DNA from: a virus | DNA length: 40,203 bases | Virus record (IMG/VR): IMGVR_UViG_3300033997_000311 | Location: 1-40,203 of that record | Direction: 5' to 3' (one strand) | Shown here: piece by piece, positions 14,692 through 22,071 of the stretch | How the letters are laid out: every line of letters starts with the position of its first letter | How positions within the stretch are numbered: position 1 is the stretch's first letter | The notes under the pieces: generated by a model | The model's database searches: none | What the model saw: only the letters and a program-made list of their open reading frames with translations | Told to the model about the DNA's origin: nothing | Translations under genes and position numbers: made by a program

Positions 14692-14924
14692 TGATCGAGT
14701 GCGGGCCGGATCTAAAGGTGAACCCTGCGTTCGTCGCATCTCTGGCCTGGGACAACCGCTCCTACGCCAACGGCCCTGGTGACAGCGTCTTGGTGATCAC
14801 CATGCACGATGGGACCGAACACCGCGTCCGGCACTCGCACCGGTCCGCCTGGGGCGGCGTCGACGCGTATGCGGTCGAGAAGGCCATTTGCGCCGCGTTT
14901 GAGAAGCGGGGCGGCGCGCTATGA
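14691..14924 (+). CDS. Small protein between terminase genes
   Basis: 77 residues, beta-rich start (DSVLVITMHDGTEHRVRHSH) and a C-terminal helix. No family recognised. It overlaps the small terminase by 1 bp and the large terminase by 4 bp, so it is made with the packaging proteins. Confidence 0.7.
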   Translation: MIECGPDLKVNPAFVASLAWDNRSYANGPGDSVLVITMHDGTEHRVRHSHRSAWGGVDAYAVEKAICAAFEKRGGAL

Positions 14925-16411
14925 GGCGCTCCCCGAACGATCCGAGCGGAAAGCCCGATTGGGACAGGCTGAATGGCGAGGCGGCGTTGAGCCGCCTCGG
15001 TCGCGGCGACTTGCTCCTCGGCTATCAGGCCAGCACGCTCGAAGACCTCTACACCGGCACCGCGCTGCTGGTGATCGAGAAGAGCCGCCGTATCGGCCTG
15101 ACGTGGGGCCTCGCGGCCTACGCCGTGATGAAGGCCGCCGCCCAGCCCTCGGCCGGCGGCATGAACGCCTGGTACATGGGCTACGACCAGGAGATGGCGC
15201 GGGAGTTCATCGACACCTGCGGCATGTGGGCCAGAGCGTTCGGCATGGCGGCCGAGGCGGCCGACGAGGAAATCCTGGAAGGCGACGGCGAGAAGGTGCA
15301 GGCCTTCCGGATCCGCTTCGCCTCGGGTTTCAAGATCGTGGCCCTGCCCAGCGTGCCGCGCGCGCTGCGCGGTAAGCAGGGCCTGGTCATCATCGACGAG
15401 GCGGCGTTCCACAAGGACCTGGTCGAGGTCATCAAGGCCGCGCTGGCCCTCCTGATGTGGGGCGGCCAGGTGGTCGTCGTCTCGACCCACGACGGCGCAT
15501 CCAACCCCTTCAACCTGCTCCTGGACGACGTCCGCTGCGGCCGGCGCAAGGGCATGGTCAAGAAGATCACCTTCGACGACGCCATCGCCCAGGGCCTGTA
15601 CGAGCGGATCGCCCTGGCCGCTTCGATCAAGGGCCGCGAGATCCTGCCCAAGGAGCTATGGATCAAGGACATCCGCGACACCTATGGCGACGACGCCGAG
15701 GAGGAGCTGGATTGCGTGCCCAAGGAAGGCGCGGGGTCCTTCATCAACCCGCAGGATCTCCAGGCCTGCGAACATCCCGACGCCGGCAAGCCCGAGCTGT
15801 ACGCGGGCGGGCTCTGGTATCTCGGCCGAGACGTGGCCCGCCGTCGCGACCTGGCCGTGCTGCACGGCTACGAGCTGGTGGGCGACGTGCTCTGGCTGCG
15901 CGATCGCCACCTCTTCCAGAACACGAAGTTCAAGGTACAGGACGACGCGGCCGCCGCCCTGATCGCCCAGCGCCGGATGACCGCCTACTGGATCGACCAA
16001 AGCGGCATGGGCGAGAAGGTGGTCGAGGACGAGCAGGCCAAGTACGGCTCGACCCGATGCGTCGGCGTCCTCTTCACCGGACCTTCCCGGCTGGATCTCG
16101 CCATCGCCCTGAAGGACATGGTCGAGCAGTGCAGGATCCGGATCCCGCCGCTGCCGGCCATCCGGGCGGACTTCCGGGCGATCAAGAAGAAGGGCACCGC
16201 TGGCGGCGGCGTCAGCTTGGTCAACGCCACCGACGAGGTCCACGCCGACGAGTTCTGGGCGGCGGGCCTGGCATGCCGGGCCGCGAGCATGGGCGGGGTC
16301 GTCGCGCCCGAGGCGCTCACCTCTGGCTTCACCGGCGCGCCGCCGGGCTTCCACGGCGCGGGCCTTCTGGACCCCTACGATCAACCCCTCGACTTCTCGG
16401 GCTTCATCTAA
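14921..16411 (+). CDS. Large terminase subunit (Mu gp28-like)
   Basis: 496 residues. The ATPase has a Walker A-like VIEKSRRIGLTWG with K54 and a Walker B LVIIDEAAF with D159-E160. The nuclease half begins near WYLGRDVARRRDLAVLHGYE, whose first Asp is a candidate metal ligand; a further acidic segment is near TDEVHADEFWAAG. It pumps DNA into the prohead and cuts the concatemer or host-linked DNA, giving host DNA at the ends in Mu-type packaging. ATGA overlap upstream and 1-bp overlap with the portal gene. Confidence 0.93.
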   Translation: MRRSPNDPSGKPDWDRLNGEAALSRLGRGDLLLGYQASTLEDLYTGTALLVIEKSRRIGLTWGLAAYAVMKAAAQPSAGGMNAWYMGYDQEMAREFIDTCGMWARAFGMAAEAADEEILEGDGEKVQAFRIRFASGFKIVALPSVPRALRGKQGLVIIDEAAFHKDLVEVIKAALALLMWGGQVVVVSTHDGASNPFNLLLDDVRCGRRKGMVKKITFDDAIAQGLYERIALAASIKGREILPKELWIKDIRDTYGDDAEEELDCVPKEGAGSFINPQDLQACEHPDAGKPELYAGGLWYLGRDVARRRDLAVLHGYELVGDVLWLRDRHLFQNTKFKVQDDAAAALIAQRRMTAYWIDQSGMGEKVVEDEQAKYGSTRCVGVLFTGPSRLDLAIALKDMVEQCRIRIPPLPAIRADFRAIKKKGTAGGGVSLVNATDEVHADEFWAAGLACRAASMGGVVAPEALTSGFTGAPPGFHGAGLLDPYDQPLDFSGFI

Positions 16412-17919
16412 TGGCCACCACCGATCCCAAGACCCAGGAAGCCACCACGCCTCCCGCGCCCGAGCTGCGCGAGGTGGCGATCAGCGTCGCCGGCGTCGAC
16501 ATCACCATCCCGTTCATGGGCGCGCTGCGTGAGATCCAGGACACCGTGCTGGCGCGGCTCGGGAACAACTACGCCGCCTACCGCGAGCTGCGGCGCGACG
16601 ACCAGGTCCATGCCTGCTTCCAGCAGCGCCGCCTGGCGCTGACCTCCCGGCCGGTGCTGGTCAAGGCCGGCGCGGACGACGCGGCCTCGATCGCGGCCGC
16701 CGACTTCATCCGCGAGAACCTGGCGCAGATCCCGTTCGACAGGACCTGCGGCATGGCGCTGTGGGGCGCGTTCTACGGCCACGCGGTGACCGAGTGCATG
16801 TGGGAGCGCCGAGACGGCAAGATCTGGCTCGGCAAGCCCAAGGTCCGCGTGCCCTGGCGCTTCCGCTACGCCACGGACAACAGCCTGCGGATGCTGACCA
16901 GGACGAACCGCGTCCAGGGCGAGCCGCTGCCCGATCGCAAGTTCTGGACCACCAGCTGGGGCGCGGACAACGACGACGACCCCTACGGACTGGGCCTGGC
17001 CCACCAGCTCTACTGGCCGGTGTTCTTCAAGAAGCAGGGCCTGTCGTTCTGGCTGCGGGCCCTGGAGAAGTACGGCGCCCCGTCGACCTACACGAAATAC
17101 CCGGCCACCGCCGACGCCGACCTGAAGAAGCAAGCCCTGGCCGTGGCCCAGCGGCTGCGGGCCGATGGGGCGGCCGCGATCCCGGAGGGCATGGAGGTCC
17201 ATCTCCTCGAGGCGGCGCGCGGCACGGTCGACCAGGCCACCTTCCTGCGCCAGATGAACGCGGCGATCGCCAAGATCATCCTCGGCCAAACCATGACGAC
17301 CGACGATGGGGCCAGCCTGTCGCAGAGCCAGGTCCACATGGAGGTCCGCGAGGAGCTGACCGACGCGGACGCCGAGCTGCAGTGCGAGAGCTTCCAGAAC
17401 GGCCCGGCCGCCTGGCTGACCGCCTGGAACTTCCCAGGCGCGCGCACGCCGCTGATCACCCGGCCCAGCCCCGAGGACGAGACGGCGATCGCCGAGCTGC
17501 TGGAGAAGAAGGGCAAGGCGGTGAAGGCCCTGCGTGACGCTGGCCTGGAGCCCGAGAACGACGAGGTCATCGCCTCGATCGTCGGGCCCGGCTGGCGACT
17601 GGCGGCGAAGCCTACCCCGCCGCCGGCGGCGTCTCCCGCCTTCGCCGAGGCCAGCCCGCGCGACGCCGTTGACGACTATATCGACGCCATGGACTGGGAG
17701 GAGGTCGCCCGGCCGTTGCGCGACCAGGTCGTCGCCTTCGTCGAGGGCCAGCCGGATCTGCAGGCCGCCGCCGACCAGCTCGGCGCGCTTCTCGCTGATC
17801 CCGCCGGCGCCCAGCTGGTCGAGAAGCTGGGGCGGGTGCTCTTCGAGGCCCGCGTCGGCGGCCGCGCCGGCGCCGCTCTGTCGGCCGGCATGGCCCAGGC
17901 CGACGCCGACCGCGCATGA
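16411..17919 (+). CDS. Portal protein (DUF935, Mu gp29-like)
   Basis: 502 residues. YAAYRELRRDDQVHACFQQR, WLGKPKVRVPWRFRYATDNS and LYWPVFFKKQGLSFWLRALE followed by KYGAPSTYTKYP are typical of DUF935 portals. The protein forms the dodecameric vertex through which DNA enters and leaves. The C-terminal region is Ala/Pro-rich with an acidic helix. The start at 16411 overlaps the terminase stop; the longer in-frame extension upstream lies inside the terminase gene and is rejected. Confidence 0.93.
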   Translation: MATTDPKTQEATTPPAPELREVAISVAGVDITIPFMGALREIQDTVLARLGNNYAAYRELRRDDQVHACFQQRRLALTSRPVLVKAGADDAASIAAADFIRENLAQIPFDRTCGMALWGAFYGHAVTECMWERRDGKIWLGKPKVRVPWRFRYATDNSLRMLTRTNRVQGEPLPDRKFWTTSWGADNDDDPYGLGLAHQLYWPVFFKKQGLSFWLRALEKYGAPSTYTKYPATADADLKKQALAVAQRLRADGAAAIPEGMEVHLLEAARGTVDQATFLRQMNAAIAKIILGQTMTTDDGASLSQSQVHMEVREELTDADAELQCESFQNGPAAWLTAWNFPGARTPLITRPSPEDETAIAELLEKKGKAVKALRDAGLEPENDEVIASIVGPGWRLAAKPTPPPAASPAFAEASPRDAVDDYIDAMDWEEVARPLRDQVVAFVEGQPDLQAAADQLGALLADPAGAQLVEKLGRVLFEARVGGRAGAALSAGMAQADADRA

Positions 17920-19229
17920 CCGGCGTCATCGAGTTCAAGGCCAGGCCGCCCGCCCAGGCCGTCGACTACCTGGAGAGCAAGGTGGTCGGCGGTCGCTTCT
18001 CGTTCGACTGGAAGGACGTCCAGCGCGAGGAGCACCTGGTCTCGTTCGTGGTCGCCAAGGCGATGGCGCGCGACATCCTGGTCGACATCCACTCCGGCCT
18101 GGTCGAGGCGATCAAGACCGGCAAGAGCCGTGAGCAGTTCGTCAAGGACCTGACACCACTGCTGCAGGCCAAGGGATGGTGGGGCAAGGCGCTGGCCACG
18201 GATCCGGCCACTGGCGAGACCCAGCCGGTCCAGCTGGGCTCGCCGCGCCGGCTGCGGACGATCTTCGAGACCAACATGCGAATGGCCCACGCGGTCGGCC
18301 GCTGGGACCGGTTCATGGCCTCTGCCAGCACGCGCCCCTTCCTGACCTATCACCACACCCCGCAGGAGAACCCGCGCCTGGAGCATGTGGCCTGGGATGG
18401 CGTCACCCTGCCGATCGGCCATGAGTTCTGGAAGACGCACTTCTGTCCCAACGGATGGGGCTGCAAATGCTTCATCACGTCGGAACGGGCCGGCGCCGCG
18501 GTGACGTCCGAGGAGGAGCTGAACCGGGTCGGCGCCTATGACACCAAGCCCTGGACCAACAAGCGGACCGGCGAGACGCGCGAGATCCCCGAGGGCGTGG
18601 ATCCGGGCTTCGACTACAACGTCGGCCAGGCGCGGCTGGCCAGCTTCGTCCCGCCGGCCGCGCCCGAACGCCAGCGCCCCTACGTCCAGGGCGAGCGCAT
18701 GCCTCGCGCCTTGCCCAACGTCCGCCAGGCCCGGAGCCTGCCATCGGGCGTCCAGCTGCGCCCGGATCTTGGCGGGGCCGACGCTCAAACCGTCTTCGAA
18801 GCCTTTTCCAAGGTGCTTGGAAAGGGCGAGGGCGAGGTGTTCATCGACGCCGCCCAGGTGCCGGTGGTGGTCGGCCGGCGGATGTTCGAGCGCCACACCG
18901 CCGCCGGGGCCAGTGTCGCCGCCAAGGAGCACCTGGCCGGGCGGGCGGCCTATGCCGAGATCCTGGCCAACACGCTGAAGAGCCCCGACGAGATCTGGCA
19001 CTCGATCCAGAGCCGCGAGGACGGCTCGTCGGTCTTTGTCCGCAACTACGTCTCCTGGATCAAGAGCGGCGATGGCCGGGAAGCCTTCGTCGTCAGCTTC
19101 CACGAGCGGGACGGCGTCTGGTGGGGGGCGACCGCCTATCCGCCCGGCAACCGGGGCAAGGCCCGCGACCAGCGCACCCAGACCGACGCTGGCTTCCGCG
19201 TCGGCGCTCTGGTCTACGCCCGGAAATGA
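17916..19229 (+). CDS. Head morphogenesis protein (SPP1 gp7/Mu gpF) with C-terminal PBECR-like nuclease domain
   Basis: 437 residues. Residues about 1-230 are the minor head protein domain: VQLGSPRRLRTIFETNMRMA and the cysteine cluster HFCPNGWGCKCF near 170-180. After a linker (PNVRQARSLPSGVQLRPDLG), residues about 288-437 read as a separate domain with SPDEIWHSIQSREDGSSVFV, RNYVSWIK and a final WWGATAYPPGN segment. This pattern resembles PBECR2, a member of the Barnase-EndoU-ColicinE5/D-RelE-like nuclease group often fused to phage head proteins. Such a domain could act on RNA after injection; catalysis is not shown here. A terminator follows immediately. Confidence 0.87.
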   Translation: MTGVIEFKARPPAQAVDYLESKVVGGRFSFDWKDVQREEHLVSFVVAKAMARDILVDIHSGLVEAIKTGKSREQFVKDLTPLLQAKGWWGKALATDPATGETQPVQLGSPRRLRTIFETNMRMAHAVGRWDRFMASASTRPFLTYHHTPQENPRLEHVAWDGVTLPIGHEFWKTHFCPNGWGCKCFITSERAGAAVTSEEELNRVGAYDTKPWTNKRTGETREIPEGVDPGFDYNVGQARLASFVPPAAPERQRPYVQGERMPRALPNVRQARSLPSGVQLRPDLGGADAQTVFEAFSKVLGKGEGEVFIDAAQVPVVVGRRMFERHTAAGASVAAKEHLAGRAAYAEILANTLKSPDEIWHSIQSREDGSSVFVRNYVSWIKSGDGREAFVVSFHERDGVWWGATAYPPGNRGKARDQRTQTDAGFRVGALVYARK

Positions 19230-19231
19230 AA

Positions 19232-19260
19232 GACCCCCGCGCGGGGCGCCGCCGGGGGTC
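19232..19260 (+). terminator. Terminator after the head morphogenesis gene
   Basis: GACCCCCG (19232-19239) and CGGGGGTC (19253-19260) form an 8-bp stem around a 13-nt GC-rich loop, 3 bp after the stop. The following GTGTCGGTCTGTTTGG is only weakly T-rich. It separates the packaging operon from the capsid operon. Confidence 0.7.
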
Positions 19261-19562
19261 GTGTCGGTCTGTTTGGACCCCGCATCCGCCGGGATTGGAC
19301 CGCTCCTAGAATTTAGGGCCGTAGGGGCGGCTTGTCGATAGGGCCGCCCGGATGGCCGTGATGTGGCGTTCTACGCCTTCCACGGCGTTCTACGGCGTTC
19401 CAGGGCGGTGGCGAAGGCGGATCGGGGGATCGCGATCGGCGATCAATGGCCGGGCTGGCGAGACCCCGACATCTGTCGGGTGCGAAGGCCTCGGCGACAC
19501 TCTCGATATTGGGGGCTCAACGGACGCGCTGTCCACCCCGTTCCTGAGCCCCGATCGAGATC
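19261..19562. promoter_or_regulatory. Intergenic control region before the capsid operon
   Basis: About 300 bp without a convincing gene. It contains a 7-bp stem (GGGCGGC 19325-19331 with GCCGCCC 19343-19349), a direct repeat GGCGTTCTACG at 19365-19375 and 19384-19394 with a partial third GGCGTTC at 19394-19400, and a hairpin CCCGACA-TC-TGTCGGG at 19465-19480. It probably carries a late promoter and its activator site. Which of these elements is used is not decidable by eye. Confidence 0.55.
19465..19480. repeat. Hairpin sharing its core with the early terminator
   Basis: CCCGACA-TC-TGTCGGG, identical over 16 bases to the centre of the terminator at 11981-12010. It has no T-tract here and lies 82 bp before the protease start. 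Confidence 0.6.
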
Positions 19563-20702
19563 ATGTCGAGCAGCACCGAAGTCGCTAGCCCCGAGCGTAA
19601 CCCGATATTCCGTGCTGGCCGCCATCGGGCTATGGACGGCCGCTATTACACCTTCAGCGAAGCCGACGTCGCGGCCATCGCCTCCAGCTACGACCCTTCG
19701 ATCCATCAGGCGGCCTATGTTCTGGGCCATCCCAAGACCGACGCCCCGGCCTGGGGCTGGGTCGACAAGCTGGAGGTCGAAGACGGCCAGCTGGTGGCCG
19801 TCGCCGGCAACATCGATCCGGCCTTCGCCGAGGGCGTGGCTGCGGGCCGCTACCGCTTCCGCTCGGCGGACTTCTACCCCCCGAACGACCCGGCCAACCC
19901 CAAGCCCGGTCAATACTACCTGCGCAGCGTTGGCTGGCTAGGCGCCGAGCCACCCGCGATCAAGGGCCTGGGCGCTGCCTTCAGCGAGACCGCCGAGGCC
20001 GAGCCGATCTCGTTCGGCGAGACCGAGCTGAACCTGTCCTGGCTGGCGGGCAACGTCGCTGATGGCTTCCGCCAGCTGCGCGACTGGATCCTGGGCAAGT
20101 GGGGGCAGGAGGAGGCCGACAAGGCGCTCTCGTCCTGGACGGACCGTGCCGCCACCCAGATCGCCGCCGATGTGCGCGCCGAAGCCCGCGCCGAGCCGGG
20201 CGCGGCCTTCTCCGAGGCTCCGACCGTCGATCCCGAGGCGGCCGCCGCCCTGGACGCCCGCACCGCCGCCCTGGATGCGCGCGAAGCGGCCCTGACCGAG
20301 CGCGAGAGCCGCATCCAGGCCGACCAGGTCGCCTTCTCCGAAGCCGCCCGCGCCGCCGCCCGCGAGGACGACAGCGCCTTCGTCAACGGCCTGGTGAGCG
20401 CCGGCCAGCTGCCGCCGGCCTATGCCGACCAGGTCCGCACGCTCCTGGGCGTGCTCGATGGCGACCAGGCCATCTCGTTCGCCGAGGGCGAGGCCGGTCC
20501 GCGCGACCAGCTGCGCCAGCTGCTGAGCGGCCTTGGCCAGGCGATCGTCTTCTCCGAGCTCGCGCCGGCCGGCGACGTCCGCTTCGCCGAGAACCAAACC
20601 GCCGAGCAGATCGCCGTGCAGATCCGCGACGAGCAGGCCCGCGCCGCCGAGCGGGGCGAAACCCTTTCCGCTTCTCAAGCCGCCGCCCGCCTGGGCCGCT
20701 GA
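19563..20702 (+). CDS. Prohead protease/scaffold (Mu gpI-like)
   Basis: 379 residues. The N-terminal half has FRAGRHRAMDGRYYTFSEAD, YVLGHPKTDAPAWGWVDKLE and RYRFRSADFYPPNDP, matching Mu-like prophage protease I (PF10123 type). The C-terminal half is charged and coiled-coil rich (ALDARTAALDAREAALTERE), a scaffold that guides capsid assembly and is then digested. Mu makes protease I and scaffold Z from the same frame; an internal start here is possible but not identified. No strong Shine-Dalgarno is seen before the ATG. Confidence 0.85.
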   Translation: MSSSTEVASPERNPIFRAGRHRAMDGRYYTFSEADVAAIASSYDPSIHQAAYVLGHPKTDAPAWGWVDKLEVEDGQLVAVAGNIDPAFAEGVAAGRYRFRSADFYPPNDPANPKPGQYYLRSVGWLGAEPPAIKGLGAAFSETAEAEPISFGETELNLSWLAGNVADGFRQLRDWILGKWGQEEADKALSSWTDRAATQIAADVRAEARAEPGAAFSEAPTVDPEAAAALDARTAALDAREAALTERESRIQADQVAFSEAARAAAREDDSAFVNGLVSAGQLPPAYADQVRTLLGVLDGDQAISFAEGEAGPRDQLRQLLSGLGQAIVFSELAPAGDVRFAENQTAEQIAVQIRDEQARAAERGETLSASQAAARLGR

Positions 20703-21135: not shown

Positions 21136-22071
21136 ATGGCTGCTACGCCTTTCCCGATCGACGAAACCCGGACCGGCATCGCGCTGGCCTACAAGAACGA
21201 GGAGATGATCGCCGACCAGGTGCTCCCCGTCGTCACGCCTGTGCCGAAGAAGGAGTTCACCTACCTGAACTACCCGATCGCCGAAGGCCTGACGGTGCCG
21301 GACACCAAGATGGGTCGCCGGTCGGAAGCCAACACGATCTCGCTTTCGGCCACCGAAACGCCCTCGTCGACCGACGACTACGCTCTGTCGGACCTGGTTC
21401 CGAACAGCGACGTCGACAACGCCCCCCAGGGCTACGACCCGCTGAACCACGCCACCGAAACCGTCACCGACCTGATGATCCTGGACCGCGAAGTCCGGGT
21501 CGCCGGCCTGGTCTTCGCTCCCGCCACTTACGGAGCGGGCAACAAAGCGCAGCTGGCCGGGAACTCGCAGTGGAGCGACTTCGCCAACAGTGACCCCTTC
21601 CAGTACATCTGGAACCTTCTGGACGTCCCAACCCTACGGCCGAACCTGGGCGTCTTCGGCCAGCCCGTCTGGAACAAGCTGGCCATTCACCCCAAGATGA
21701 TCGCCGGCGTCTACGGTTCGGCCTCGACGCGCGGCAAGGTGCTGCTGGCCGACCTGGCCGACGCGCTGGAGATCCCCAAGCTGATCGTGGGCAAGGCCCG
21801 CGTGAACACTGCCAAGAAGGGGCAGGTCGCCAACCTCAACCGCGCCTGGGGCAAGCACGCTGCCTTCCTGCACGTGAATGCGCTGGCCAACAACCAGCGC
21901 GGCATGAGCTTCGGCATGACCGTGCCGCAGGGCCGGCTGCGCCAGGTCCGCGTGATCGATGAGCCGAAGATCGGCATCGGGGGCTCCCAGCGGGTCCAGG
22001 TCGAGAGCCAGGTCAAGGAGCTGATCTCGGCGCCCGACTGCGGCTTCTTCGTCCAAGACGCGGTGGCCTAA
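21136..22071 (+). CDS. Major capsid protein
   Basis: 311 residues. The N-terminus (MAATPFPIDETRTGIALAYK, then EEMIADQVLPVVTPVPKKEF) and the segment FGQPVWNKLAIHPKMIAGVY are typical of coat proteins of siphovirus-type Mu-like phages with a presumed HK97 fold. It follows protease/scaffold and decoration genes, the standard order. A 48-bp gap precedes it and likely holds its ribosome-binding site. Confidence 0.9.
   Translation: MAATPFPIDETRTGIALAYKNEEMIADQVLPVVTPVPKKEFTYLNYPIAEGLTVPDTKMGRRSEANTISLSATETPSSTDDYALSDLVPNSDVDNAPQGYDPLNHATETVTDLMILDREVRVAGLVFAPATYGAGNKAQLAGNSQWSDFANSDPFQYIWNLLDVPTLRPNLGVFGQPVWNKLAIHPKMIAGVYGSASTRGKVLLADLADALEIPKLIVGKARVNTAKKGQVANLNRAWGKHAAFLHVNALANNQRGMSFGMTVPQGRLRQVRVIDEPKIGIGGSQRVQVESQVKELISAPDCGFFVQDAVA

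Follow-up and report, generated by a model that had tools for sequence, protein, structure and literature searches.

The minor head protein encoded in the window, by which we mean the whole stretch of 40,203 nucleotides that was analysed (IMG/VR record IMGVR_UViG_3300033997_000311), joins a MuF N-terminal half to a C-terminal PBECR2 domain, and comparison with its closest relatives indicates that this domain is kept by selection and exchanged as a unit. We propose, at slightly less than even confidence, that the PBECR2 half may be an RNase effector that is packaged in the virion and ejected together with the DNA.

The F protein, its head module and its relatives

The gene for the F-like minor head protein runs from an ATG at 17916 to a TGA at 19229 and is open throughout. 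Its main parts are the following:

17916..19229, + strand: F-like minor head protein gene, MuF N-domain and PBECR2 C-domain, 437 aa
18087..18476, + strand: Phage_Mu_F domain (PF04233), aa 58-187 (Pfam, E 9.7e-13)
18648..18740, + strand: linker, about aa 245-275, low-confidence and probably flexible (lowest pLDDT at 245-260; mosaic breakpoint at aa 249)
18783..19229, + strand: PBECR2 domain, folded at about aa 290-437, Pfam match aa 303-421 (Pfam and model)

In Pfam searches of the 437-aa protein, Phage_Mu_F scored 49.3 bits relative to a cut-off of 29.6, and PBECR2 (PF18810) scored 56.9 bits relative to a gathering threshold of 27.1 (E 3.1e-15, aa 303-421, profile positions 11-114 of 120), rising to 58.3 bits when the C-terminal 149 aa were searched alone. 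Because none of 14 control genomes gave a match in the same family search, the PBECR2 match is not a chance result. A preliminary description of this DNA had placed the C-terminal domain among the PBECR families, and the profile search bears this out; its label "toxin-like" is best read as a family resemblance. The layout that it gave, a gpF-like head domain followed by a linker and a separate C-terminal domain, agrees with both Pfam and the full-length model, and the motifs that it named were located at aa 356-361 (SPDEIW), 376-381 (RNYVSW) and 402-408 (WWGATAY). The start that it gave for the domain, position 18780 (aa 289), is about right, as the model and the breakpoint together indicate a linker of about aa 245-275 followed by a domain covering about aa 290-437. 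PHROG 220, annotated "minor head protein and DNA pilot", covers aa 6-412 (E 4e-75).

The F gene directly follows a Mu-type portal gene (16408-17919), the end of Portal_Mu coinciding with the start of F, and further 5′ lie a large terminase gene (14921-16411) and a gene for a Gp27-like protein. On the 3′ side are genes for a head maturation protease (19563-20702) and the major head protein (21136-22071), which gives the order terminase, portal, F, protease, capsid typical of a Mu-like head module. Elsewhere the window encodes a Mu-type transposase, a DNA transposition protein resembling MuB and a long tape-measure protein; the phage is therefore Mu-like and transposable, and it is probably a temperate siphophage. 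No near relative of the head region of the 40,203-base record was found among named phages.

The same protein is encoded by viral contigs L002-L007, with domains 60-91% identical. Its closest match in bacterial genomes, at 91%, lies in a prophage of Caulobacter sp. BP25 (L098), which makes a host of the Caulobacter type likely. PBECR2 was found in 9 of 299 sampled genomes of the family to which strain BP25 belongs and in 13 of 385 of its class; among named phages it occurs in relatives from Rhodobacter phage RcapMu (103 bits), Pseudomonas phage Fc02, Thermus phage Riverbug and Leptolyngbya phage Lsp-JY19. Searching viral contigs with one distant PBECR2 domain at a time, from L033, RcapMu or L039, added almost nothing new. 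Fusions of PBECR to MuF were described in 2017, with packaging and RNase action predicted (Iyer et al., PMC5512222), and the window protein shares with them the order MuF then PBECR, the portal-protease interval and the Mu-like head module. It differs in that its domain is 24-27% identical to the aligned named-phage members and in that, within its Caulobacter-lineage group, H327 is invariant and the segment preceding the helix is longer. The F protein of RcapMu (AER29960.1), a Mu-like phage of an alphaproteobacterium, also combines MuF with PBECR2, but is 26% identical overall and is followed by a G-like gene, whereas a non-coding interval follows F in the window. The C-domain of phage Mu gpF (gp30, NP_050634.1) matches MuF_C weakly (21 bits, below the cut-off) and not PBECR2, and has been described as an inactive PBECR-type domain (PMC5512222).

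Selection, cassette exchange and the downstream interval

When the C-terminal domain of the window was compared with those of L002, L003, L004 and L138, dN was 0.05-0.07 and dS 0.3-0.6 (dN/dS about 0.1-0.2). Because dN is far below dS among these closest relatives, the substitution pattern indicates that the domain is maintained under purifying selection. Between contigs L003 and L004, divergence drops from 25% before aa 249 to 9% beyond it (likelihood ratio 62, relative to a maximum of 16 in 500 permutations), and third positions across the break differ by 39% versus 19% (P 5e-6). The tract of high identity extends across the linker and the domain into the non-coding interval on the 3′ side. 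Since divergence switches at aa 249, these alignments mark the linker as a recombination joint and the domain as a cassette that moves. Among 80 loci found through the MuF half, complete proteins fell into 32 short and 44 long, and many MuF relatives carry no such C-domain. Where related MuF halves do carry one, it was assigned to PBECR2, PBECR3-like, MuF_C-like, lethal-factor-type peptidase-like or ADP-ribosyltransferase domains, some of these assignments being under the curated cut-off. Separately, the MuF proteins of L050, L075, L093, L016 and L017 have C-terminal extensions of about 180-200 aa, in which no Pfam match was found for the two scanned (L050 and L016).

The interval between F and the protease gene contains two listed features:

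19230..19562, strand not assigned: non-coding interval of 333 nt from the F stop to the protease ATG, with no conserved small ORF
19232..19260, + strand: GC-rich hairpin just 3′ of the F stop (-27.1 kcal/mol, z -2.3; no T run)

A small ORF follows 89% of MuF toxin genes (Jamet et al. 2017, PMC5576092). An immunity gene directly 3′ of F was considered and rejected, as the interval is non-coding in the window and its close relatives: alignment of 19230-19562 with five relatives revealed frame-breaking gaps and no common ORF. Elsewhere, the gene that comes after a PBECR2 gene is a G-like or protease gene, with no consistent small ORF between. The roseophage F genes of L016 and L017, which have other C-domains, are followed by an ORF of 60-61 aa that overlaps the F stop by 4 nt. 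The 60-aa ORF of L016 (L016:3311-3493, Pelagibaca phage vB_PeaS-P1) apparently corresponds to ORF33 of PMC5488378, an ORF with reported virion peptides; its product may serve the unclassified C-domain of F in that phage as an immunity protein or a partner.

In six aligned sequences the arms of the hairpin at 19232-19260 are identical and its loop is variable; it is possibly a terminator. Just 5′ of the protease gene, a conserved non-coding block at 19497-19564 (GACACTCTCGATATTGGGGGCTCAACGGACG onward) is kept in four aligned relatives and is perhaps a promoter or processing site. The interval is about 600 bases larger in the Caulobacter sp. BP25 prophage (L098:4815-5752, noted together with L002:4490-5427) and there includes a frame on the minus strand; the last 200 residues of its product resemble a membrane-anchored protein and have no Pfam match. 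In Pseudomonas phage PaMx73 the equivalent F-protease interval is occupied by anti-CRISPR genes, for which reason this position may be a slot for accessory genes.

Predicted fold and candidate active site

An AlphaFold2 model of the domain, built with 21 sequences, is globular (pLDDT 80, pTM 0.79) and contains, after its numbering was shifted by 275 to protein positions, a helix at 340-355, strands at 359-366, 372-384, 387-398 and 401-408, and a short strand at 431-435. The BECR fold consists of a helical segment and a four-strand meander, often with a short fifth strand (PMC3482391), and a BECR topology is supported for the modelled C-domain, judged by the order of secondary structure only. 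The full-length model has two confident parts on either side of a stretch at about 241-270 with pLDDT 37-62, and its pTM of 0.57 means that the mutual placement of the two parts is not defined.

Structure prediction had been put forward as a check on the nuclease assignment; the topology came out BECR-like, but neither Foldseek nor VIA-align gave a significant match of the domain to any solved nuclease. The best Foldseek hits in the PDB were unrelated NTF2-like folds (E 9e-3), and no VIA-align row reached Z 5; chain 6cp9_C, from a contact-dependent inhibition toxin-immunity complex (Z 3.2, 82 residues), was set aside as within noise. A sequence search of the PDB also gave no match. The best match in BFVD was a large polyvalent protein (E 1.7e-3, probability 1.00), with several of that kind lower down, which agrees weakly with a PBECR assignment of the model.

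Two codons of the candidate active site are singled out here:

18894..18896, + strand: H327 codon, invariant in close relatives, with histidine in this stretch only in part of the wider PBECR2 family
19131..19133, + strand: T406 codon in strand 4, the conserved S/T position of BECR nucleases (PMC5512222)

Conservation was scored in 41 representatives sharing less than 70% identity with one another. The residues most often kept were P357 (40), E359 (38), R428 and G430 (37 each), D311 (36) and W402 (35), followed by R376 and Y378 (33 each), R343 (31), W361 (30) and T406 (29, with S in two more). Position 406, which lies within strand 401-408, is thus T or S in 31 of 41, and R343, which lies within the helix, is R in the same number. 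Only 18 of the 41 have a histidine at the helix or ahead of it: H327 precedes the helix, in a hairpin, and is invariant across the close group of five sequences; H339, immediately ahead of the helix, is not conserved. The window copy retains H327, R343, E359, R376 and T406, residues that are strongly conserved within its group. Because members of the Pseudomonas phage Fc02 type (23 Pseudomonas phage records) have lost the histidine, R343 and T406 and nevertheless keep the domain, some PBECR2 family members are probably non-catalytic.

Function of the PBECR2 domain

As we envisage it, the gene product would serve a Mu-like temperate phage as a minor head protein with two functions. By analogy with SPP1 gp7, the MuF N-half would dock in the procapsid near the portal, with the PBECR2 C-half carried as an effector domain on the flexible linker. 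The C-half would enter the new host alongside the DNA and may act there, early in infection, as a metal-independent RNase on RNA of the host or of the phage; its active site would consist of R343, E359, R376, T406 and R428, possibly with H327. In SPP1, the portal carries gp7 into the procapsid interior, and the protein supports infection (PMC6316719). Peptides of F proteins were detected in virions of the Mu-like roseophages vB_ThpS-P1 and vB_PeaS-P1 (PMC5488378). Both sources place MuF-family proteins inside virions, as the proposal would have it; the two roseophage F proteins have no PBECR2 match. Virion evidence from phage PaMx73 (PMC4378225) was also considered and was dropped, as its F protein lacks a PBECR2 match and the finding has no bearing on the domain.

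An ejected RNase effector would also account for a PBECR2 match far above the cut-off, a helix and four-strand meander whose fourth strand carries T406, the retention of R343, E359, R376, T406 and R428 at the frequencies given above together with H327 in the close group, and a domain that is under selection and stands among varied C-domains on MuF halves with a break at the linker. It fits less well with the lack of a significant structural match to a solved nuclease, with a histidine in fewer than half of the representatives, with the Fc02 relatives, with the lack of a linked immunity gene and with the inactivity ascribed to the domain of Mu F. The main rival, which we consider the less probable of the two, gives the domain a non-catalytic role in the head, binding nucleic acid or serving as a structural element (as DNA pilot or in packaging); it would be kept for binding where catalysis has been lost or never existed, as proposed for Mu gpF. 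The 23 Pseudomonas phage records in which the domain persists without the three residues argue for it, as do the nuclease-free fold search, the PHROG 220 match across nearly the whole protein, and the lack of an immunity gene or any sign of control over self-poisoning. However, the window copy keeps all candidate active-site residues, strongly conserved in its group. Moreover, a general head role does not seem to need the domain, because many MuF relatives, including the 273-aa F protein borne in vB_ThpS-P1 virions, do without one.

Varied C-domains on a constant MuF half, exchanged as cassettes at the linker, are also typical of MuF polymorphic toxins, which are carried by temperate phages (PMC5576092; Apk2, PMC12226406); the transposase and MuB-like genes of the window would suit such a system. 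That the protein is a classical toxin of this kind, used by lysogens against competitors with its immunity protein encoded elsewhere, is nonetheless improbable: immunity genes usually stand next to such toxins, some of which are toxic, but the customary adjacent small ORF is absent here and in close relatives. We regard as equally improbable that the domain is a late RNase of the producing cell, acting during assembly on mRNA of the phage or its host, or on its own transcript, for example at the hairpin after the stop. The phage RNase RegB, which has the BECR fold, does cut early phage mRNA (PMC5512222), and the arms of the hairpin are unchanged in the aligned sequences; however, nothing connects the domain with the hairpin, which a terminator-like element explains simply, and a head-bound protein would be an odd route to a soluble regulator.

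As a sequence find, the window protein is an ordinary further member of a fusion class that was already known, and phage head and polyvalent proteins commonly contain PBECR domains. What is added here are its close relatives, the purifying selection, the cassette breakpoint, the alternative C-domains, the retained residues and the lack of an adjacent immunity gene. Returning to the ejected effector, a bolder version, which we think unlikely, is that the PBECR2 domain of the Caulobacter lineage is an active virion-delivered RNase without an immunity partner, whose specific RNA target (for example a defence-related RNA) makes self-protection needless; if true, this would be an early example of a MuF-PBECR effector whose target is defined. 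In the literature found, the RNase role of PBECR domains is a prediction. The window copy is compact, with the candidate catalytic residues retained, and comes from a phage group related to prophages of Caulobacter. As this genus is genetically tractable, the window protein is a convenient one in which to ask whether PBECR domains cut RNA, which RNA they cut, and whether they enter cells.
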